Translations under genes and position numbers: made by a program
Notes under the pieces: generated by a model
Told to the model about the DNA's origin: nothing
Databases searched by the model: none
What the model saw: the letters and a program-made list of their open reading frames with translations, nothing else
In this document: one piece after another, positions 18,514 to 31,023 of the stretch
Layout of the letters: each line of letters starts with the position of its first letter
How positions within the stretch are numbered: position 1 is the stretch's first letter
Origin: Candidatus Hydrothermarchaeum profundi
GTDB lineage: Archaea; Hydrothermarchaeota; Hydrothermarchaeia; Hydrothermarchaeales; Hydrothermarchaeaceae
NCBI GenBank assembly: GCA_002011125.2
Contig: MTMF02000009.1
Location: 648,889-712,888, forward strand
Direction of reading: 5' to 3'
DNA: 64,000 bases

Positions 18514-18914
18514 TTAAGGAGTAATTCTATTTCTCTCTCCATTCCCTTCTTACTTAAGTAGCCTATGAACTTCTTTTCAACCTCCCCCTTATTATTAAAG
18601 AAAACAAATGCTGGAAGGCTATCTATCCCATATTTTTGTGCCAGCTCTTTTTCTTCATCAAAGTTTGCGGTGAGGAAATTTACTTTCCCGCTATACTCTT
18701 TTTTCAGCTCTCTCATAGTTGGAAGCATTTCCCAACAGTAGATACACCAGTCTGCAGCGAATTCAAGCACAATGGGATTTCTGCTTGATAGGGCAGCTTC
18801 AAACTTTTCAGGTGAGTAGTCGTACTCTATTGACTCGCCAGCAGTTTTTTCAATAGATTTCTCGCTAGATATACATCCAACAAGAATTATTAGAAGAAGT
18901 ATTATCTCTTTCAT
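18510..18914 (-). CDS. Thioredoxin-like lipoprotein
   Basis: From the ATG at 18914 the protein is 134 residues: a lipobox (LLIILVGC, Cys14), then a thioredoxin fold with active site WCIYC and a cis-Pro loop SLPAF. It should be anchored outside the membrane and act as a thiol reductase, for example keeping apo-cytochrome cysteines reduced. A longer frame from 18992 adds 26 non-hydrophobic residues and would lie on top of the TATA-like element near 18993-19000, so I reject it. It overlaps the multiheme gene by 4 nt and is first in the operon. Confidence 0.88.
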   Translation of the reverse strand: MKEIILLLIILVGCISSEKSIEKTAGESIEYDYSPEKFEAALSSRNPIVLEFAADWCIYCWEMLPTMRELKKEYSGKVNFLTANFDEEKELAQKYGIDSLPAFVFFNNKGEVEKKFIGYLSKKGMEREIELLLK

Positions 18915-18985
18915 TAAGGAGAAATAGTTTTTAGACGGATAAAAATTTTGCCAGAAAGAATAGTTTTGTGTAGATTTGGCATTAT

Positions 18986-19056
18986 CGTGCATTAAATATA
19001 CTTAATATGTCCTTTTTCCCACACAAACTATGGAAGAAGAAAAAATTTATATATTG
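18986..19056. promoter_or_regulatory. Divergent promoters of the electron-transfer island
   Basis: Two archaeal TATA-like elements face outward. The minus-strand one (AAGTATATTTAA on that strand, about 18989-19000) serves the thioredoxin/cytochrome operon. The plus-strand AATTTATATATT at about 19044-19055 serves the beta-propeller gene. The spacing of about 45 bp would allow shared control. No clear operator palindrome was seen between them. Confidence 0.5.
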
Positions 19057-19110
19057 TTTAGGCAACCCCCTACTAGATTAGGTTAAAATTTTTGGATAGG
19101 AGGTGAAGAA

Positions 19111-20346
19111 GTGAAATATATTTTCAGCGCTACCTTTGTCGCTCTGTTGTTTATGGCCGTACTAGCATCGGGATGCATAGGGGGGGAAAAAGCAGCACCA
19201 TCTGAAACAGTAGCTCCTGAAGAAACTGCCCCGCCGGCTGTAACACTAGCTAAAGGAAGAGCTTTCACAGCGGGGCATGGGGGACACTTAGCGGTTATAG
19301 ATTTTGCGATAAATCCTAAAACTAAGGAATTTACAATATATAGCATAGGTAGGTTGGTGGCATATAGTCCTGATGGAAAAAAATACGGTGCAGAGAAAGC
19401 TTCTCATACAGTGTCTCTTTCTAAGGATGGCAAAACTCTCTACTGGGCGGCATTAGATGGAACGATAACTGAGATTGATCTGGATGCGGTAGGATTGACT
19501 CTAGATAAGGCTCCAGTAGGCACTCTGAAAGAATGGAGGACTTATAAGGCAAAGGATGTTGAGTGGGCTGAATTAGGTGGAGAAACTGATAATCTCCATT
19601 GTGGTTCAAGTCTAAGTCCTGATGGAAAGACGCTCTATGTTTCCAGTATAGGCAGCGGTGCAGTGCTCGTATATGATACCACAACGCATAAAAAAGTGGA
19701 CAAAATACCTGTAGATGCGTTTGGTTGTACTGCTGAAGTTACCCCGGATGGCAAATACTTATACTTCGCAAATATGGCGGCAGGCGTAGTCGACAAAGTT
19801 GACCTTTCTACTAGGGAGATCGTTAAGAAAATAGATACTACACAATACAATGGATATTTCTTGCATATAGGAGAGTTAGCGCCTGATGGTAGATACCTCT
19901 GGCAGACTGCGGCTAATGAATTTAAGGAAGGTAAGCCATACAATATACCCATCGAAGGAGCTTCAGGCATAGGCCAGGGCTATGTGATAATAATAGATAC
20001 GGTGAATGATAAAGTCGTAGATGCACTTAATGTCCCAGGTAACCCGCATGATGTGACCTTTACTAAAGATGGAAGGTTTGCCATTCTTTCAGCGAGGCAT
20101 CTGCCTGAGAATCCAACTAGTAGTGGCTTAGTCCTTGTTGATACTACTGAGAAAAAAGTTATCAGCGAGCATGATGTTTGTGGAGCATGTCATGATGAAC
20201 TAGGTGCTGATGTCAGCGAGTTTATAGATCCTGAGACTCAAGTGCTAACGAATCTAGGCTTGCTTGAACATCCTGAAACCGGACTCGCTTTGGCTTGCGG
20301 TATAGATATTACCTGGGAAAAGAGTACTACCTTAGGGTGCATGTAA
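19111..20346 (+). CDS. Lipoprotein beta-propeller with C-terminal heme c motif; candidate copper enzyme
   Basis: A 411-residue protein with GTG start, set by SD AGGAGGTG at 19098-19105. The lipobox LASGC (Cys22) is followed by a Ala/Pro/Glu linker. The body has YVTN/NHL-like blades (SxDGKxLY repeats). At the same place in successive blades, seven or eight residues before the Asp-Gly turn, lie H99, H163, C206, H252 and H313, with H59 in the first blade. This pattern resembles propellers with a central metal site such as NosZ or SELENBP-type enzymes. A single CGACH heme site (357-361) and two more Cys follow. A terminator hairpin follows at once. Divergent from the cytochrome operon; ABC transporter and copper chaperone are downstream. 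Function is inferred, not known. Confidence 0.75.
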   Translation: MKYIFSATFVALLFMAVLASGCIGGEKAAPSETVAPEETAPPAVTLAKGRAFTAGHGGHLAVIDFAINPKTKEFTIYSIGRLVAYSPDGKKYGAEKASHTVSLSKDGKTLYWAALDGTITEIDLDAVGLTLDKAPVGTLKEWRTYKAKDVEWAELGGETDNLHCGSSLSPDGKTLYVSSIGSGAVLVYDTTTHKKVDKIPVDAFGCTAEVTPDGKYLYFANMAAGVVDKVDLSTREIVKKIDTTQYNGYFLHIGELAPDGRYLWQTAANEFKEGKPYNIPIEGASGIGQGYVIIIDTVNDKVVDALNVPGNPHDVTFTKDGRFAILSARHLPENPTSSGLVLVDTTEKKVISEHDVCGACHDELGADVSEFIDPETQVLTNLGLLEHPETGLALACGIDITWEKSTTLGCM

Positions 20347-20415: not shown

Positions 20416-21633
20416 ATGGAAAAATTGAGCTTAACGTATGTAGCAAGGAAAAATATTAAGCGAAAGCTCTTTCGCAGTATTGCGTTAATACTAGCGGTAG
20501 GTATAGCAACTGGGGCTCTGTTTTCGAGTATTCTTATAATGAAAAGTGTGGAGCGTGGTTCTAAGACTGCTGTCTCCATGTTAGGGGCAGATTTAATGGT
20601 AGCACCTACTGGTTATGAAGCTGCGGCAAGAAGTTCTTTACTGGCTGGAGAACCACAGACCTTCTATATGGATCGCTCTATAGAAGAAAAAATAGCTAAG
20701 ATAGATGGCGTTGAAAAAACTTCATCACAAGTTTACGCGGAGACCTCTTCTTATCCCTGCTGTGGATTTAGGAAATCCTTTTTAGTCGGGTTTGATCCGA
20801 AAACGGATTTCACCGTCATGCCTTGGCTTAATAAAAAATTAGATAGGCCTTTTGGTGGGAATGATGTTATAATAGGCAGCGAGATTCCGGCTTACCCTGG
20901 ATTTACAACCTATGTGCATGGTCATGAGTTAACAATATGGGGGACTCTTCATCGCACAGGTCTGAAATATTTTGATAACACCATTTTTATTCCTATCGAG
21001 ACTCTCTATAAAATAGCCGAGGAAACTAGGCTGAATAGCAATGTAGCACCATTAGAAATCAACCGAAATCAAATTTCTGTAGTACTTGTTAAAGGAGAAG
21101 AGAAAGTCAGGCCAGACGTGTTAGAAGTTAGAATCGAAGGAAGAGTGCCCGGCGTTATTGCAATTCCTGTTGAGAGCGTAGTTCATACGGTTAAAATACA
21201 GGTTTCCTCTCTTTTTGGGAGCCTCTTCATTTTATCAGCGGTTTTGTGGGTTGCTAATACTCTTATGATTAGCGCTATTTTTTCTACGATCGTTTCTGAG
21301 AGGCAGAGGGAGCTGGGTATTCTTAGGGCGATTGGGGCTGATAGGAACGCGGTTTTTAGGCTTATAATATTGGAGGCGGTTATCTTAACAAGCATCGGAG
21401 GCATACTCGGAATAGCTTCTGGCCAGCTTATATTTTTAGCATTTAAAAATAGTATAACATCATCATTTACTTCTTTAAAAATACCATATATATGGCCTAG
21501 TGCCGTGAACATTTTGATGATTTCTCTGCTGAGTTTTATATCCGCGGTTAGTATGGGCGTCTTTGGGGCCATTTACCCAGCATTCAATAGCACTAAAATG
21601 GAGCCTTATCTAGCAATTAGGGCCGGTGAGTGA
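20416..21633 (+). CDS. FtsX/MacB-type ABC permease, first copy
   Basis: A 405-residue permease with an N-terminal membrane helix, a large external domain (about residues 45-255) and three C-terminal helices (FtsX fold). An adjacent Cys pair occurs in the external domain (SYPCCGF, before LVGFDPKTDF). The same position in the other permease also has CC. It shares a 182-bp identical stretch (21235-21416) with the second permease. As I recall, permeases with this CC...GFDP.TDFTV block accompany P19-type iron/copper uptake loci in bacteria. It overlaps the ATPase gene by 8 nt. Cargo unknown; metal delivery is suggested by the copper chaperone nearby. Confidence 0.85.
   Translation: MEKLSLTYVARKNIKRKLFRSIALILAVGIATGALFSSILIMKSVERGSKTAVSMLGADLMVAPTGYEAAARSSLLAGEPQTFYMDRSIEEKIAKIDGVEKTSSQVYAETSSYPCCGFRKSFLVGFDPKTDFTVMPWLNKKLDRPFGGNDVIIGSEIPAYPGFTTYVHGHELTIWGTLHRTGLKYFDNTIFIPIETLYKIAEETRLNSNVAPLEINRNQISVVLVKGEEKVRPDVLEVRIEGRVPGVIAIPVESVVHTVKIQVSSLFGSLFILSAVLWVANTLMISAIFSTIVSERQRELGILRAIGADRNAVFRLIILEAVILTSIGGILGIASGQLIFLAFKNSITSSFTSLKIPYIWPSAVNILMISLLSFISAVSMGVFGAIYPAFNSTKMEPYLAIRAGE
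21235..21416 (+). repeat. 182-bp direct repeat, copy 1 (within permease 1)
   Basis: Identical over 182 bp to 23130-23311. It starts at TCAGCGGTTTTGTGGG and ends at CTCGGAATAGC. It covers the end of the external domain and the second and third membrane helices. Divergence resumes sharply on both sides, as expected for recent gene conversion. Confidence 0.95.
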
Positions 21634-22312
21634 AATGATAGTTACAGAAAATCTGACTAAAATATATAGGGTTGGAGACAGGGATATAGAGGCAGTCATT
21701 GATGTAGGACTTAGAATTAGTGATAATGAATTCGTATCTATTGTAGGCCATTCTGGTAGTGGGAAGACAACATTATTAAGCATGATAGGCGGTCTTACAA
21801 GGCCGACTAAAGGGAAAGTGTTTGTAGATGGTATAGATATTTGGTCGCTAGGAGATAAGGAACTTTCTAAGTTGAGGAATGAGAAGATCGGGTTTATTTT
21901 TCAGTTCTCAAGTCTAATACCTACTTTAACCGCACTTGAAAATGTCATGCTACCGGCGACCTTCAGCCAAAATAAGAAAAAAGAGGTGGCTATACGAGCT
22001 GAAGAAATGCTTGATCTTGTAGAACTCTCTCATAGGATCGATTCTTATCCATCACAACTTTCAGGAGGTGAGCAGAGGAGAGTTGCCATAGCTAGGGCGT
22101 TAGTAAATAAGCCAAAGATAATTCTCGCAGATGAGCCGACAGGCGATTTAGATCATGAAACGGAAAAAGATGTAATAGACCTCTTTCTCAAAATAAATAA
22201 AGAATTTAATACGACTTTTTTGCTCGTAACTCACAACATAGAATTAGCCATGAAGGCTGATAGAAAATTAGTGATGGATCAAGGTAAAATAATAGAAGAT
22301 CCAAATGACTAG
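21626..22312 (+). CDS. ABC transporter ATPase, LolD/MacB type
   Basis: A 228-residue ATPase. Walker A GHSGSGKTT, signature LSGGEQRR, Walker B ILADEPTGDLD and switch His (VTHN) are intact. Its short length with no extra domain matches LolD/MacB ATPases that drive FtsX-type permeases by mechanotransmission rather than classic import. It lies between, and overlaps by 8 nt, both permease genes, so one ATPase dimer likely serves a permease heterodimer. Confidence 0.92.
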   Translation: MSEMIVTENLTKIYRVGDRDIEAVIDVGLRISDNEFVSIVGHSGSGKTTLLSMIGGLTRPTKGKVFVDGIDIWSLGDKELSKLRNEKIGFIFQFSSLIPTLTALENVMLPATFSQNKKKEVAIRAEEMLDLVELSHRIDSYPSQLSGGEQRRVAIARALVNKPKIILADEPTGDLDHETEKDVIDLFLKINKEFNTTFLLVTHNIELAMKADRKLVMDQGKIIEDPND

Positions 22313-23528
22313 TGTAAGTTTGTCTTATTTAGCACGAAGAAATATAGTTCGCAAATCTTTCCGGAGTATTGTACTTATATTTGCGGTGAGCATCTCAGTC
22401 GGCGTCTTATTCTCTACCACTTTGATGCTTAAAAGCATCGATAAAGGAATAAAAGTGGAAATGGAGAGGTTAGGGGCAGACTTACTTGTGGCTCCGGTAG
22501 GATATGAAGCTAAGGCCCGTACAGTACTTGTTAGTGGAGAGCCGCAAATATTCTATATGGGCGAAGAAGTTGTTGATAAAATAATAGCTATTCCAGGGGT
22601 TGTAGCTGCTTCTCCGCAGATTTTTATGGAAACCTCTTCTTATTTGCTGTGTTGCGAGATTTTAGAAACTTTGTTAGTCGGGTTTGACCCAGAAACAGAC
22701 TTTACAGTGACCCCATGGATAGAGTCTAGGGTAGATGGGCCTATTGATTATGAGCGTGACATTATTACAGGAGGGATGGTGGCTGTGTATGAAGGATATG
22801 CATATTATATCTACGGACAGGAGTTTAGAGTTTATGCGAGACTTCAGAAGACAGGGTTAAATTATTTTGATAGGACGATCTTTATCCCTCGAGCTCGAGC
22901 ATATAAGTTGGCACAGCAAACAAAAGAGAGGAAAGGGGTAGCTCCACTGAAATTATCTTCTGGAGATGTCTCGATTGTTTTAGTGAGAGTTTCGCCTAAT
23001 GCGAATGTAACAAAAATAGCGGAACAGATAAAGAGAGATATCCCTGATGTAAGTGTTTTAAAGATACAGGATATGCTTGCAAATACTAAACAGATATTCC
23101 TTAAATTGTTTGGAGGCTTACTAGTATTTTCAGCGGTTTTGTGGGTTGCTAATACTCTTATGATTAGCGCTATTTTTTCTACGATCGTTTCTGAGAGGCA
23201 GAGGGAGCTGGGTATTCTTAGGGCGATTGGGGCTGATAGGAACGCGGTTTTTAGGCTTATAATATTGGAGGCGGTTATCTTAACAAGCATCGGAGGCATA
23301 CTCGGAATAGCCGTGGGAAGTATTACTTTTACTATTTTTAAGAGCCATATATTATCCTCTTTTACTATGCTTAAGTTCCCTTATATCTGGCCTTCCTCTC
23401 CTGAAATTTTGGCAATCGGTTTAGGTAGCTTCTTGGCATCCCTAGCTATGGGGATTATTGGAGCATTATATCCTGGCTTTATATCTACAAAATTAGAGCC
23501 ATATTTTGCAATAAGAAAAGGAGAATAA
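22305..23528 (+). CDS. FtsX/MacB-type ABC permease, second copy
   Basis: A 407-residue paralogue of the permease at 20416, with the same N-terminal helix, external domain and three C-terminal helices. The matching Cys pair is SYLLCCEI before LVGFDPETDF. The external domains differ at many positions, but 23130-23311 is base-for-base identical to 21235-21416. It should pair with the first permease and share the ATPase. Confidence 0.85.
   Translation: MTSVSLSYLARRNIVRKSFRSIVLIFAVSISVGVLFSTTLMLKSIDKGIKVEMERLGADLLVAPVGYEAKARTVLVSGEPQIFYMGEEVVDKIIAIPGVVAASPQIFMETSSYLLCCEILETLLVGFDPETDFTVTPWIESRVDGPIDYERDIITGGMVAVYEGYAYYIYGQEFRVYARLQKTGLNYFDRTIFIPRARAYKLAQQTKERKGVAPLKLSSGDVSIVLVRVSPNANVTKIAEQIKRDIPDVSVLKIQDMLANTKQIFLKLFGGLLVFSAVLWVANTLMISAIFSTIVSERQRELGILRAIGADRNAVFRLIILEAVILTSIGGILGIAVGSITFTIFKSHILSSFTMLKFPYIWPSSPEILAIGLGSFLASLAMGIIGALYPGFISTKLEPYFAIRKGE
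23130..23311 (+). repeat. 182-bp direct repeat, copy 2 (within permease 2)
   Basis: Second copy of the tract at 21235-21416, with no difference I can find, at the same position in the paralogous gene. The copies lie 1,895 bp apart in the same orientation. Recombination between them would delete the ATPase gene and fuse the permeases. Confidence 0.95.
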
Positions 23529-23554: not shown

Positions 23555-23950
23555 TTAAGAACGTTGGGCTTTTACTTCAACGCTGCCAAATTTTTCGAAT
23601 TCTAATATGAGAGTTATCTCATCTTCTGAAGGATCAGCTCCAAATGCCATTATATGATAGCCGCCTCTTTTAAGTGGCACCGTTTCTCCTTTTGGAATCT
23701 CAATTTTATCAACCTTTAGCATCATTCCGCCTGCTATGGTATGAAGCTCTACTTTTGCATTTGGAAACTCCTTTATTTTAGCCGAGATTAGATTATCTGC
23801 TCCTCCATGATTCTCTATAACCATAAAAATGGAGATAGCATTAGACATCCCGGAAGACATGAAATATACATCATGGACCTTGATCTCCGGAGGATTATTT
23901 ATGCATCCTGCTGCTACTATAAATATAGCGAGTAGAAGATATCTTCCCAT
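23555..23950 (-). CDS. PCu(A)C-type copper chaperone lipoprotein
   Basis: From the ATG at 23950 this is 131 residues. A lipobox (LLAIFIVAAGC) precedes a domain like the bacterial periplasmic copper chaperone PCu(A)C (DUF461). The key elements are ELHT...GGMM, then about 21 residues with an IPKGETV turn, then GGYHIM, which fits the family's H...M...HxM Cu(I) site. It should carry copper outside the membrane. It converges with the ABC operon and may supply the candidate metal site of the propeller. Another 13 codons upstream are open but lack signal character. Confidence 0.8.
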   Translation of the reverse strand: MGRYLLLAIFIVAAGCINNPPEIKVHDVYFMSSGMSNAISIFMVIENHGGADNLISAKIKEFPNAKVELHTIAGGMMLKVDKIEIPKGETVPLKRGGYHIMAFGADPSEDEITLILEFEKFGSVEVKAQRS

Positions 23951-24152
23951 ATTGGTTGAATAAGCGTAGAATAATCTAGAAAATTTCATATTTCAGAGGC
24001 CCCTAAATTGGATTTCTTTTATTCTTTATACGATTGATGTTTTAACTTTTTTGCTACTTACTGCTAAAAAGGCTCTGAGCTAGTCTTTAAATTTATTATA
24101 TTCAGAAGAAATAATAAAAAACTATATTAACCATAGGAAATACGCTGTTAAT

Positions 24153-25505: not shown

Positions 25506-26103
25506 TTTTTTCAACATACTTGGAGACTTGGAGCAAAGGGAAGAAATATTAGCCCAACTAGCAGAAAAAATAGAAGAGGGATCTAAAGTTGTAGATATAG
25601 CGACCGGCTCAGGATATTTTGCAAGGAATTTTTTAGAGAGAGAAGTATTCCTTGTATGCGTTGATATCGATACAAGGGCATTAATGTCTTTGAAAAAAGA
25701 GTTGTCCTCAATTTCTAAGAAAGCGCATTTTGAATTTATAATATCAGATGCCGCATGGTTGCCATTTAAAGAGCACGTGTTTGAGTACTCCATCGGCTGG
25801 TCAGCTCTTGTTCACATAAAAGACTGGAGAATCTCGGTTGAAGAGATGTTTAGAGTTTCTAGGAACATTATTTTAGCTGAGCCCTCCGGCGAGTATGCGG
25901 TTAGAGCGTTTAGAGATTTCATGTACAACTATAGCCCTCCTTCTCCCAGAGAGTGGTTAGGAGAATTTTATAGAAGGGGAAGTGTAAATATAAAGATAAA
26001 GGACTTTGTAATGGTGGTAGAGGTAAAAAGTGAGAATCGTAGTTGTGCTCCTAATGTTAATAGCAGTCTCTGGGTGCCTTCCTCAAAAGGTAGAGAGGCA
26101 TGA
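25468..26103 (+). CDS. Class I SAM-dependent methyltransferase
   Basis: A 211-residue protein. Motif I VVDIATGSGYFA and the acidic strand VCVDIDTRAL bind SAM; SDAAWLPFKEHVFEY is motif II. It resembles small UbiE/type 11 methyltransferases. The substrate is unknown. It overlaps purB by 38 nt and the following lipoprotein by 74 nt. The last 25 or so residues, which lie in that overlap, look non-conserved, so a shifted 3' end is possible. Confidence 0.7.
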   Translation: MSSKFLEEKEFRNFFNILGDLEQREEILAQLAEKIEEGSKVVDIATGSGYFARNFLEREVFLVCVDIDTRALMSLKKELSSISKKAHFEFIISDAAWLPFKEHVFEYSIGWSALVHIKDWRISVEEMFRVSRNIILAEPSGEYAVRAFRDFMYNYSPPSPREWLGEFYRRGSVNIKIKDFVMVVEVKSENRSCAPNVNSSLWVPSSKGREA

Positions 26104-26569
26104 GTTAGAGATTGAACCAGTTCTTGACCACTATGCCCTAAACGGCTATACAGAAAGTGCAGGGGAGGGCCTATACGTTATCCCAGGTTCCATAAAGGAT
26201 GCTAAGAGTGGACTACAGGAGATCGTTATTAACGGTGAGCCTCCTAAAACAGTATTTAGTACTGGTGATGAGCTAAATTTCGTAGTTTTCAGAGGAGTTT
26301 TTCCGACGGGCGGATTTAGTATTGAGATTAGAAGAGTTGAGAAGGAGAACACCTTTTTCTTCATTTTCGCTGACTATATAGATCCTGGGAAGGGCATGGC
26401 TGTGACTCATGCATATACATCACCTGCGGTGATAATACCTATAGGCAGGCTTGAAAGAGGCAACTACCGAGTAATGCTCCTTGTCACTAAAGTCCGTAGG
26501 ACCGCTGAGGGCGATGAAATAGTATATGAGGATAGGGAAAAAGCTATGGCGGAGTTCTCGGTAAAGTAG
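26030..26569 (+). CDS. PrcB-like lipoprotein, partner of the downstream subtilisin
   Basis: A 179-residue lipoprotein from a GTG start, with leader RIVVVLLMLIAVSGC and acylated Cys16. The region from about residue 85 (VFPTGGFSIEIRRVEKEN...DYIDPGKGMAVTHAYTSPAVIIPI) matches the PrcB C-terminal domain pattern: TGGY.I.I..V, a gap, then P.........T.P...V.I. In Treponema denticola the PrcB lipoprotein belongs to the dentilisin complex with the subtilisin-like PrtP. Here the subtilisin gene begins 5 nt downstream, so a chaperone or stabiliser role for that protease is likely. Confidence 0.7.
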   Translation: MRIVVVLLMLIAVSGCLPQKVERHELEIEPVLDHYALNGYTESAGEGLYVIPGSIKDAKSGLQEIVINGEPPKTVFSTGDELNFVVFRGVFPTGGFSIEIRRVEKENTFFFIFADYIDPGKGMAVTHAYTSPAVIIPIGRLERGNYRVMLLVTKVRRTAEGDEIVYEDREKAMAEFSVK

Positions 26570-26574
26570 TTTCT

Positions 26575-29500
26575 ATGAAAAGAGTGGTAGCAGGATTTAT
26601 ATTGCTTCTCTTCCTGAGCCAGCATCTAGCATCTGGCGTGGCTAGTAATCACATTATAAAGGATTTTGGAGAAAAGAAATCAGAGAAATATAAAGAAAAG
26701 TTAAGCCCTGGCTTGCTTAAAAAAATAGAAATAACTGCAGAGGACGAAGAACTACCTATTATCATATTCTATGAAGAGAAGAAAAAGGCGAGATCAGCAG
26801 TAACAGTTGAATCGTCCATTAAGGTCCTCGGAGGAAAAATAAAGCACAAATACACTCTTGTGAAAGCGATCTCAGCTAGATTACCGGCTGGGAAAATAAA
26901 AAAGCTGGCCGAGTCTACAGAGATAAAGAGAATATACCCCGATGAGGTCGTCAGGCTTTCAATATTCTCCAGCAATACGTCAGCCAAACTCGAAACAAGT
27001 GTAAAAGCCATAGGCGCTGATTATGCATGGGAGACCTTGGGCTACGATGGCTCAGGGATAACTGTGGCGGTGGTTGATACAGGCATAGACTATACGCATC
27101 CGGACTTAGGGGGAGGCTTTGGCCAGGGTTATAAGGTAAAGGGGGGCTATGATTTTGTAAACGAGGATACAGACCCAAAGGACGATAATGGGCATGGCAC
27201 TCACGTGGCGGGCATAATAGCTGCTAACGGTACCGTGAAAGGTGTAGCCCCCGGGGCATCATTATTGGCTGTGAAAGTGCTTAATGCTCACGGATCAGGG
27301 TACTCTTCTGATGTCATCGCAGGTATAGACTGGGCAGTTTTCAATGGGGCTGATATAATCAGCTTGTCCTTGGGAAGCTCAGATCAGCCGAACGATGAAT
27401 TCGAGAGCCCTATAAATTTGGTAGCGGATGAAGCAGTGGCCAGGGGAGTTATAGTCGTAGTTGCGGCAGGAAATGAGGGTCCAGGAACCGGAACAGTAGA
27501 TCATCCTGGAGCAGCTAGCAAAGTAATAACAGTGGGAGCATCTGATGATAAGAACACAGTGTCTATTCTAGATGACAGTATATCAGCTATTAGTAGTAGA
27601 GGTCCCTCTGCTTTTGGAAGATTAGATCCTGATCTTGTAGCCCCTGGAGTAAGTATTAATTCCACTTACTTGGTTTCTAATGGTTCTTATGCGGTTTTAA
27701 GCGGTACCTCTATGGCAACTCCTCATGTTGCAGGGGCAGCCGCGCTATTATTGCAGAAAAATGCCTCTCTTACTCCCACCGAGATAAGATCTATTCTTAT
27801 GCGCACAGCTTCAGCCGTCCCAAATGCCCATATATTCGAACAGGGTGCGGGTGTAATAAATGTTACAAGAGCTTTGCTCCAGCGTTCTTCAGCGTTTATT
27901 AATGGAGATGATAGGTGGGAAGTAACTGTCCCTCATGGATTTAGTTCTACCGCTGAGCTGGTATTGGAAAACGATAATAACGCCGGTGTTACCTACTTCT
28001 TTAATTTGCAAGAGTTATTTGATCTCGAGGGAGACAACTATTTGTCTCCTTCAAAATTATTCTTTCCTCAGAGCGTCTACCTTCAGCCTTATAGTAGAAG
28101 AGCAGTCGATGTAATATTTTCTTCTACTGGTGATGAAAATGCGTCTATCTACGGAGGAGTTCTTAATATAACTACTAATAGTTCTGACTCTCTTATGATT
28201 CCAATTGTTATTAATATCCCTCTTCTCGGTAGCGGATTTATTACCGGCACAGTGGACGATAGCGATGGATCTTTAGAAGCCGGTGACTGGATTTACTATA
28301 ATGTCAAAACTCATAATGGGACATCCCTTACAGCTTCTATTAATTGGAGCAATCCAGCGTATGATTTAGATTTATACCTATTTGCTCCGAATGGCGAGCT
28401 TGTGAACAGTTCTAATTCCAGCGACCAAAGTTTAGAGCAGGTAACGCTGTCTGATATGGTCTACCATGAATATTGGCTGGCTATACACAACTATAATTCC
28501 CATGGAACCAAGGTTGTTTATGAATTGACTATAACCTATGATTCTAAATTATATGTGGAACCAGATTCATGGCAGGTTAAAGCTAGGAGGGGTGAAGTTA
28601 AGAACGCAACCTTTAGCCTAATAAACAATGGTGCAGGAAAAGCTGTGAATTTATCTGTTATGAGACTATCTCTTGGTACTAGCGGGTTTACTTCTGGGAC
28701 TTTAGAAAACACAGGAGAATACTATAGGGTGATATGGAATTCTAGTGGAATAGATGTGAAGAACGCCCACTATTTAAATGCTACACTCGTATGGAATGAT
28801 CCCGCAAAAGATCTGGACATGATGGTTGCATATTATAATGGAACCGGCTGGTCGGCCACAAGATTTCTGTCTGCGCATGATAACAAAGAGCTTGGAGAAG
28901 CCAGAGAGAGCTTAGAGAATGTGGACATCCAGTACTATATAAAGACCTACGGAGAAGTTGGCATAGCGGTGAAAAACTATGGTTCATCCGCAGATTATAA
29001 TTTGACGGTTAACTTCACAGAGTTGGTTCCTTGGGAGGCGGCAACTGTAAGTCCATCTAATCTGACATTTGAGCCAATAGGGAATGTAACTGTGAATATC
29101 TCGATCAACACTACTCCTCTAGAAGATAGAGAGACTTATGATGCGGTATTTATAGTATCTAATGCTACAGAGGATTTTGCCATTGTGCCAGTTAGAGTAA
29201 AAGTTCTACCAATAGTTGTAAACCAGACCACTCCAGCGGATGTCGAGGGCTATGTTTATTACTCTTCAATTCAAAACGCTATTGATGATGTAAACTCTGC
29301 ATTCTCCACAATCTATGTTTCTCCTGGAACGTATATTGAAAATTTAGATGTTAATGCTGGAGTAAAAATCATTTCATCTTCTGGGCCAAATTCTACTTTC
29401 ATAAAGCCTAGCACTCCATATGACCACGTAATAGATATAAAGGGGGATTATGCGATAATCTCTGGCTTCACCATTCAGGATGCGAACAAGGGGTATGCAG

Positions 29501-31023
29501 GCATATATGTCCGAGTTAATAACTCCCAAATCTCTAACAGCATTATAAAAGGTAACTATTTTGGTGTTTACTTTAATAGCTCAAGCGGAAACGTTTTGCT
29601 AGGGAATACTTTCGATAATATTTGGGATTATTATTCTACATCTTCATCGGTTAACAACTCTGTTATAAATTGCTATATTAATCAGACTAGAGTTACATTT
29701 AAAGCCACAGATGTAGCGGTTACTTCTGTTGCTTCTCCTCCGCCAGTAGGGGATGAGCTTTTTGATATAGGCAAATTCGTTAACATAACAAACACCTCTA
29801 ATAATAGCTGGATAAGCTTAAACATTTATTACGACTCATCAGAGGTCGGGAGGATTACAGAATCTACGCTGGGATTATATAGATTTAATGGAACCGAGTG
29901 GGGGAGAGTAGAGGGGAGCGGGGTTAATCTTTCTGAGAAGTATGTTTACGCTAATATATCCGAGTTCAGTGTGTTCGCCCCATTAGGTAAGGATCTGCCG
30001 CCTGCCATCTCACAAGTAGAGGCAACTTCGATAACCACAACCTCTGCCTTGATTATATGGAAAACAGATGAAGAGTCCGATTCGCTTGTGAAGTATGGTA
30101 CTCGGACGGGAGACTATATCTACACGGAGAGGGATTATTCTAATGTTACAAGTCATCAAGTTCAGCTTACTGACTTAAATCCAAGCACTAAGTACTATTT
30201 CGTGGTTAATTCTACAGACAAGAGTGGTAATTCAAATCAAAGCGGAGAATATACATTCACTACAACTGCCCAGGCGATAGTAGCGGTTGGAGGAGGAGGG
30301 GTAGCTCCAACCAAAGAAATTGTCACAGAGCCAGGGAGGGCAGTTATTACTCTTCCATCAATACCGGCTGGAAAAACTGAGGAGATAGTCTTCCCATCAA
30401 CTGAGGATTTCTACTTCACAAGACTTGAGATAACTACAAAGAAGACAGTTTCAGATGTAGAAATTACTATCAGCACTCTTTATAAAAAACCACAAGACTT
30501 AGCCGAAGATATTGAAGGGATAGTATACCGCTATATTAAAGTAACGCCCAAAAACCTTAGAGACGAAGACATCTTCAGAGTTAACATTTATTTTAAAGTA
30601 GAAAAGTCTTGGATAAAAGCTGGCAATATAGATCCTGCTTCAATATTTCTAGCGAGATATAAGAATGGGGAATGGAGAAATATTTCTACAGTAAAAATCG
30701 AAGAAGACGCAGAATCTATTTACTATTCAGCGGTATCACCTGGCCTCTCGATATTCGCTATATCCGGAGTTCCTATACCTATAGTTACTACGCCCCCACT
30801 GAGCACAGTACCTCCTCAAACTTTCCCACCAGTAACTGCCGAAGCGCCTTCGCAAACTGAAGCTCCTAAAATGACTCCGCAACCTTTGGAGATTCCAATG
30901 ACTCCTCCTCCAGAAATCCCCCGGCGAAATATAACTGGAATATTTTTTGGGGTAATAGCCTTAGTAGGTGTAGTAGGATATCTCTTCAGGAAAGCTCTAA
31001 AGAAGAAATTAATAAAAAGATAG
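26575..31023 (+). CDS. Large cell-surface subtilisin-like protease, multidomain
   Basis: A 1482-residue exported S8 protease. Order: signal peptide; inhibitor-I9-like propeptide (about 40-125); catalytic domain with D168 (AVVDTGID), H207 (GHGTHVAG), oxyanion N300 (AAGNEGPG) and S379 (GTSMATPH); pre-peptidase C-terminal-like beta domains (about 550-860); a NosD-like parallel beta-helix (about 885-1000); a fibronectin-III-like domain (about 1140-1240); a PGF-pre-PGF-type domain (about 1245-1400); a Pro/Thr linker; and a C-terminal membrane helix with basic tail. All catalytic residues are intact. It is rich in NxS/T sites, fitting AglB glycosylation. No PGF-CTERM motif is seen; the anchor is a plain helix. 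Co-transcribed with the PrcB-like lipoprotein. Confidence 0.9.
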   Translation: MKRVVAGFILLLFLSQHLASGVASNHIIKDFGEKKSEKYKEKLSPGLLKKIEITAEDEELPIIIFYEEKKKARSAVTVESSIKVLGGKIKHKYTLVKAISARLPAGKIKKLAESTEIKRIYPDEVVRLSIFSSNTSAKLETSVKAIGADYAWETLGYDGSGITVAVVDTGIDYTHPDLGGGFGQGYKVKGGYDFVNEDTDPKDDNGHGTHVAGIIAANGTVKGVAPGASLLAVKVLNAHGSGYSSDVIAGIDWAVFNGADIISLSLGSSDQPNDEFESPINLVADEAVARGVIVVVAAGNEGPGTGTVDHPGAASKVITVGASDDKNTVSILDDSISAISSRGPSAFGRLDPDLVAPGVSINSTYLVSNGSYAVLSGTSMATPHVAGAAALLLQKNASLTPTEIRSILMRTASAVPNAHIFEQGAGVINVTRALLQRSSAFINGDDRWEVTVPHGFSSTAELVLENDNNAGVTYFFNLQELFDLEGDNYLSPSKLFFPQSVYLQPYSRRAVDVIFSSTGDENASIYGGVLNITTNSSDSLMIPIVINIPLLGSGFITGTVDDSDGSLEAGDWIYYNVKTHNGTSLTASINWSNPAYDLDLYLFAPNGELVNSSNSSDQSLEQVTLSDMVYHEYWLAIHNYNSHGTKVVYELTITYDSKLYVEPDSWQVKARRGEVKNATFSLINNGAGKAVNLSVMRLSLGTSGFTSGTLENTGEYYRVIWNSSGIDVKNAHYLNATLVWNDPAKDLDMMVAYYNGTGWSATRFLSAHDNKELGEARESLENVDIQYYIKTYGEVGIAVKNYGSSADYNLTVNFTELVPWEAATVSPSNLTFEPIGNVTVNISINTTPLEDRETYDAVFIVSNATEDFAIVPVRVKVLPIVVNQTTPADVEGYVYYSSIQNAIDDVNSAFSTIYVSPGTYIENLDVNAGVKIISSSGPNSTFIKPSTPYDHVIDIKGDYAIISGFTIQDANKGYAGIYVRVNNSQISNSIIKGNYFGVYFNSSSGNVLLGNTFDNIWDYYSTSSSVNNSVINCYINQTRVTFKATDVAVTSVASPPPVGDELFDIGKFVNITNTSNNSWISLNIYYDSSEVGRITESTLGLYRFNGTEWGRVEGSGVNLSEKYVYANISEFSVFAPLGKDLPPAISQVEATSITTTSALIIWKTDEESDSLVKYGTRTGDYIYTERDYSNVTSHQVQLTDLNPSTKYYFVVNSTDKSGNSNQSGEYTFTTTAQAIVAVGGGGVAPTKEIVTEPGRAVITLPSIPAGKTEEIVFPSTEDFYFTRLEITTKKTVSDVEITISTLYKKPQDLAEDIEGIVYRYIKVTPKNLRDEDIFRVNIYFKVEKSWIKAGNIDPASIFLARYKNGEWRNISTVKIEEDAESIYYSAVSPGLSIFAISGVPIPIVTTPPLSTVPPQTFPPVTAEAPSQTEAPKMTPQPLEIPMTPPPEIPRRNITGIFFGVIALVGVVGYLFRKALKKKLIKR

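Follow-up and report, generated by a model that had tools for sequence, protein, structure and literature searches.

The window, a stretch of 64,000 nucleotides from Candidatus Hydrothermarchaeum profundi, carries a gene for a lipoprotein predicted to fold as a six-bladed beta-propeller. A cytochrome operon diverges from it on one side, and ABC transporter and copper chaperone genes lie on the other. The features, with the residues discussed below, are as follows.

15372 to 16298, minus strand: cytochrome b of a bc/b6f-like complex
16295 to 16726, minus strand: Rieske 2Fe-2S protein
16723 to 18513, minus strand: multiheme cytochrome c (10-CxxCH family), the constant partner of the propeller
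18510 to 18992, minus strand: thioredoxin-like lipoprotein (WCIYC), divergent from the propeller gene and kept in four orthologous loci
19111 to 20346, plus strand: propeller lipoprotein gene, 411 aa, GTG start; six blades predicted (ORF reading, AlphaFold2 models, orthologues at 60-68% identity)
19111 to 19176, plus strand: Sec signal peptide, ending at the lipobox LASGC (C22)
19273 to 19287, plus strand: GHGGH motif, residues 55-59, including H59
19405 to 19407, plus strand: H99, blade 1, position D-7, invariant
19597 to 19602, plus strand: H163 (D-8) and C164 (D-7, invariant), blade 2
19726 to 19728, plus strand: C206, blade 3, D-7
19864 to 19866, plus strand: H252, blade 4, D-7
20047 to 20052, plus strand: H313 (D-7, blade 5) and D314, both invariant
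20179 to 20193, plus strand: CGACH, residues 357-361, putative heme c site in the loop from blade 5 to blade 6
20296 to 20298, plus strand: C396, invariant, opening the blade 6 inner strand
20332 to 20343, plus strand: LGCM tail at the C-terminus (VxLGCG in relatives and in a PCuAC chaperone)
20416 to 21633, plus strand: FtsX/MacB-type ABC permease
21626 to 22312, plus strand: ABC ATPase
22305 to 23528, plus strand: second FtsX/MacB-type permease
23555 to 23989, minus strand: PCu(A)C copper chaperone lipoprotein (PF04314, E 5.6e-16)

The first-pass annotation had described the product as a lipoprotein with a single CGACH, and reading of the ORF agrees. The lipobox cysteine C22 is aligned in the orthologues and in most paralogues, and CxxCH, the heme-attachment motif of c-type cytochromes, is present once, at residues 357-361. 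The protein ends 15 residues past C396. A Shine-Dalgarno sequence (GGAGGTG, 19099-19105) precedes the ORF, and a TATA-like AT stretch (19040-19056) lies upstream of the gene within the 118-bp divergent promoter region.

The window genome (G000) and Ca. Pyrohabitans (JdFR-16 and JdFR-17; Hydrothermarchaeota) belong to one order. Four Pyrohabitans-clade genomes have orthologues with 60-68% identity, and four genomes have distant paralogues with 24-28% identity. A still more distant relative, truncated where its contig ends, comes from G044, which belongs to a different archaeal phylum. Among 394 archaeal genomes searched with a profile, only Hydrothermarchaeota and G044 had clear relatives, weaker matches being generic propellers. 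A search of a plasmid collection returned only generic YncE, YVTN and cytochrome D1 propellers, and a defence-system profile search gave no match. The genomes compared are metagenome-assembled, and phylum-wide counts given below run over 23 Hydrothermarchaeota genomes.

Two AlphaFold2 models, built on an alignment of three sequences (mean pLDDT 70.6 and 68.8; pTM 0.74 and 0.76), are both six-bladed when blades are counted from their DSSP strands, with the inner strand of the closing blade supplied by the C-terminus. The best structural match of the model was the six-bladed propeller 1npe (Z 26.3, rmsd 2.6 over 257 residues). Many other propellers followed, including NosZ (1fwx, Z 20.5), thiocyanate dehydrogenase (8z75, Z 20.3), NirF, NirN and cytochrome cd1. 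Since NosZ and thiocyanate dehydrogenase score level with unrelated propellers, the fold by itself is uninformative on function.

In five blades the inner strand enters an xDG[KR] turn, and the residue seven positions before the Asp (D-7) is H99, C164, C206, H252 or H313. None of 200,000 shuffles of the mature sequence reached His or Cys at D-7 in all five turns. Unrelated archaeal propellers have His or Cys there in 3 of 22 turns, and at this base rate the chance of five in five is still about 5e-5. Blade six has no DG turn; in the models C396 opens its inner strand (the DSSP strand that contains or abuts it spans 397-402 in one and 395-402 in the other) and is the sixth blade-equivalent ring residue. 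H59, which is nearly invariant, is located in the loop between strands b and c of this closing blade. One face of a propeller bears the b-c loops, the interblade loops and the inner-strand starts alike, so the ring, H59 and the CxxCH motif are expected on the same side. Register and homology suggest that the ring residues converge on the propeller axis.

This arrangement differs in part from the first-pass annotation, which had put six residues at the same place in successive blades. H99, C206, H252 and H313 do occupy D-7. H163, in contrast, lies at D-8 beside C164, which is both in register and invariant, and H59 sits in a b-c loop and not at a blade-equivalent position. Three cysteines, C164, C396 and C410, had been omitted from that list.

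Conservation singles out largely the same residues. No variation is seen at H99, C164, H313, C357, C360, H361 or C396 among the orthologues, the paralogues and the relative in G044, nor at H59 where it is present, and H59, H99, C164, H313, CxxCH and C396 are kept down to 24-28% identity. The CxxCH motif is exact in all relatives except the most distant one, G044, which has CxxxCH. Invariant columns include 8 of the 17 His/Cys positions compared to 17 of 349 other residues (p 2.4e-6). C206 and H252 are kept in the orthologues and in G044, but not in every paralogue. Even a truncated copy in genome G007 retains the GGH motif, THGVTLLSDG and KFCDAMLGPDG, equivalent to H59, H99 and C164, respectively. 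Membership of the YVTN/PD40 superfamily is clear from repeat matches above cut-off (PF07676, 45.6 vs 20.9 bits; TIGR02276, 40.4 vs 27.85 bits) and would fit an ordinary surface propeller in which these residues occur by coincidence. The shuffling and conservation results make that explanation hardly credible. A plain YVTN protein with unconserved residues, named beforehand as one refuting outcome, is contradicted by their conservation in orthologues and distant paralogues.

The ring register resembles that of the CuZ domain of NosZ (clades I and II). Copper-site motifs of a solved NosZ read NPHGLNTSPDG, with His at D-7, and CHHPHISMTDG, with a His-His pair at D-8/D-7, where the window propeller has H163-C164. 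Blade II of NosZ donates two consecutive histidines to CuZ, and the ligand of its closing blade is on the C-terminal inner strand (PMC11573801), like C396 here; we paired these ligands with the two motifs ourselves, and the correspondence is a putative one. NosZ also has copper chaperone and ABC genes nearby. The two proteins differ in that NosZ has seven blades and seven His ligands, whereas the window protein has six blades (in two models) and a mixed Cys/His ring. NosZ further has a CuA cupredoxin domain, which a Pfam scan of the whole window protein did not find; this Sec lipoprotein has CxxCH instead. Membership in NosZ is ruled out by the lack of a CuA domain, the six blades and the mixed ring. 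Separately from the propeller studied here, JdFR-17 carries a canonical nosZ, whose best solved relatives are all NosZ (E 1e-226), followed by genes resembling the nosD/F/Y/L set (G017:C7, 5569-14057).

Other copper-linked propellers were compared as well. The best NCBIfam match was L-NosZ, the clade III lactonase-type N2O reductase (NF052460, E 3.4e-13), which is a propeller too; the score of 48.9 bits against an equivalog cut-off of 700 excludes membership. SELENBP1/methanethiol oxidase MtoX is likewise a copper-linked propeller and acts on sulfur compounds, and its family is also excluded (NF052453, 13.1 bits against a cut-off of 650). Thiocyanate dehydrogenase from Thiohalobacter has thioredoxin-like and copper-transport genes beside it (PMC6504805). 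Like the enzyme proposed here, it is a copper propeller acting on a sulfur compound; unlike the window protein, it is seven-bladed and Tat-exported. Similarity between the two is a weak phmmer match (E 0.008 to 0.14), in addition to a fold score shared with many propellers. To our knowledge, no heme site is known in thiocyanate dehydrogenase. Nothing relevant on a copper/heme propeller lipoprotein taking part in sulfur oxidation turned up in a literature search.

The genes downstream of the propeller bear on the nature of the metal. A copper chaperone had been noticed in the first pass, and the Pfam match identifies it as PCuAC; the adjacent ABC genes, which had been taken for a metal-type system, are of the FtsX/MacB type and not of the metal-uptake type. 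PCuAC is found in 5 of the 23 phylum genomes, all five of them propeller-positive, and adjoins FtsX-type permease genes in four of the five, the window included. It was not detected in four propeller-positive genomes, and in Pyrohabitans the FtsX genes are unlinked to the propeller. In G021, a single cluster holds PCuAC, the ATPase, two FtsX permeases, Rieske and cytochrome b, the components that are split over two loci in the window. As a side observation, genes next to PCuAC in G021 and G001 (2721-3524, minus strand, locus L119; 402-1223, plus strand, locus L122) encode proteins that begin with a twin-arginine-like SRREF and have a C_GCAxxG_C_C redox domain.

Chaperone and propeller also share a C-terminal tail. 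The pattern VxLGCG-stop occurs exactly six times in the 23 genomes: on the four Pyrohabitans-clade propellers, the G021 propeller and the G021 PCuAC. The reversed-pattern control gave four matches, in other genomes or places. The window propeller ends in LGCM, the only LGC[G/M/V/R]-stop in its genome. We had considered the tail as a SoxY-like sulfur-carrying arm, an idea dropped once the same tail was seen on the PCuAC chaperone, which makes copper hand-off or a shared anchoring role likelier. The common tail is the best single hint of copper in the ring. NosDFY and NosL have been implicated in CuZ assembly (PMC6530538), and by analogy we infer that they are the nearest known counterpart of the PCuAC and ABC pairing. 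A literature search for PCuAC with FtsX found nothing relevant.

The CxxCH motif can be read in more than one way. Cytochrome cd1, NirN and NirF also combine a propeller with heme, as the window protein may do at its putative site. Their d1 domain is eight-bladed, and the heme c domain, where present, is separate and N-terminal. One alternative makes heme c itself the catalytic centre, placed over the channel like the heme d1 of cytochrome cd1, with the ring providing a distal ligand and pocket and no copper. The single conserved CxxCH in a loop over the channel face is compatible with this, and so are NirF, NirN and cd1 among the fold matches and a Cytochrom_D1 match just above cut-off (PF02239, 29.1 vs 25.5 bits) that covers only 86 of 368 positions. 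A ring of three Cys and three His in CuZ-like register, the PCuAC linkage with its common tail, and the absence of a surrounding cytochrome c domain nevertheless speak against it, and we consider it rather improbable.

This same absence, together with the presence of just one CxxCH, would suit a heme-free protein in which CxxCH, C396 and the ring form one Cys-rich site for a copper cluster or another metal. C357, C360, H361 and C396 are all invariant, and the CxxxCH of the most distant relative is rare for heme c. On the other hand, the motif is exact elsewhere, and DSSP assigns a helix to it in the models, as at heme c sites, although the loop from CxxCH to C396 is of low confidence in both. 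The genome also encodes multiheme cytochromes and so presumably attaches heme. On balance such a site seems unlikely, and we prefer a metal ring accompanied by heme c.

The divergent cytochrome operon noticed in the first pass proved to consist of decaheme cytochrome, Rieske and cytochrome b genes. The thioredoxin-like lipoprotein and the multiheme cytochrome are divergent from the propeller in the window and in four of four orthologous loci, and copies of the cytochrome from relatives contain 10 CxxCH. The decaheme cytochrome occurs in 8 of 9 propeller-positive versus 1 of 14 propeller-negative genomes of the phylum (p 1.6e-4, treating related genomes as independent), and most of the closest relatives of this operon's cytochrome b come from those eight genomes. 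Another, related type of multiheme cytochrome with 9 CxxCH (ORFs of about 640-690 aa) was found with no propeller gene nearby in G014:C130, G016:C27, G018:C116 and G020:C59.

It might be argued that the propeller is no enzyme but serves the cytochrome system as copper carrier, sensor or assembly factor. Its Cys tail in common with PCuAC and its ABC and thioredoxin-like neighbours would agree with such a role; the ring register and the constant pairing with decaheme cytochrome and cytochrome b suit an electron-transfer enzyme better, and we give this explanation little chance. We think it probable that the propeller is a metal enzyme of archaeal respiration that has not been characterised before.

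A sulfur-trafficking context, absent from the first-pass annotation, points towards the class of substrate. One contig of G007 holds the propeller fragment, decaheme cytochrome and cytochrome b as well as TusA, rhodanese and YeeE/YedE genes. In G021, Pfam identifies DsrH, DsrE, a second DsrE-like gene, the decaheme cytochrome and a split YeeE/YedE pair after the paralogue, and gene order indicates the same arrangement in G020. An orthologue of the window FtsX-ABC operon in G013 adjoins YeeE/YedE, TusA and a cupredoxin-like protein. DsrEFH-type carriers, YeeE and TusA are known as a set for sulfur transfer (PMC13293266). In the window genome, the closest YeeE/TusA/DsrE genes found lie about 1.05 Mb from the window. 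A cluster in that genome (G000:C9:1757000-1773000, 3863-11200) combines DsrM-like and DsrK-like genes, a small two-CxxCH protein, a YeeE/YedE pair, and TusA and DsrE-like genes. Beside the TusA and rhodanese genes of G007 (G007:C166, 7891-8490, minus strand), a small protein with no Pfam match ends in PPGAGGC-stop and, with this C-terminal Cys, could act as a sulfur carrier.

The best reading of these data, to which we give an even chance of being right, is an extracytoplasmic redox protein of a sulfur-linked respiratory system, with a metal (probably copper) and heme c. The NosZ-like register, the conservation and the linked PCuAC support the earlier proposal of a metal propeller with its own heme c. 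The ligand register, conservation, six-blade prediction, gene linkage and co-occurrence are results of the analysis; copper as the metal, the attached heme, the electron path and the sulfur substrate we infer. The enzyme would be lipid-anchored outside the cell, with H99, C164 together with H163, C206, H252, H313, C396 and possibly H59 forming a CuZ-like ligand shell at the top of the central channel. The neighbouring PCuAC chaperone would load copper outside the cell, and the FtsX-type ABC machine may assist maturation, in the role that NosDFY plays for NosZ. Heme c would be carried by CxxCH, in the loop leading to the last inner strand, on the same face as the metal site. A sulfur compound, the probable substrate, would react at the ring metal, and electrons could pass in either direction between ring metal, heme c, decaheme cytochrome, Rieske/cytochrome b complex and quinone pool, while the thioredoxin-like, DsrE/DsrH, TusA and YeeE/YedE partners would handle the substrate sulfur.

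Hydrothermarchaeota have been reported with DsrAB and without thiosulfate reductase (PMC6775978), and a conserved, membrane-facing copper/heme/sulfur-carrier system is a concrete candidate for extracellular sulfur handling in this phylum. More speculatively, and with distinct doubt, the propeller may represent a new metalloenzyme class: a six-bladed protein that carries a multicopper cluster bound by Cys and His as well as a heme c of its own, is matured by PCuAC and FtsX-ABC through the shared C-terminal Cys tail, and catalyses sulfane sulfur or thiosulfate redox chemistry outside the cell, exchanging electrons with the decaheme/bc complex and passing sulfur to or from YeeE-TusA-DsrEFH. Only a few propeller copper enzymes are known (NosZ, thiocyanate dehydrogenase), and they have seven blades; six blades, ring cysteines and an attached heme would, if true, widen the scope of propeller copper clusters. 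Elsewhere in the window (26030-31023), a PrcB-like lipoprotein gene is followed by one for a subtilisin-like surface protein of 1482 aa that has a membrane segment at its C-terminal end.
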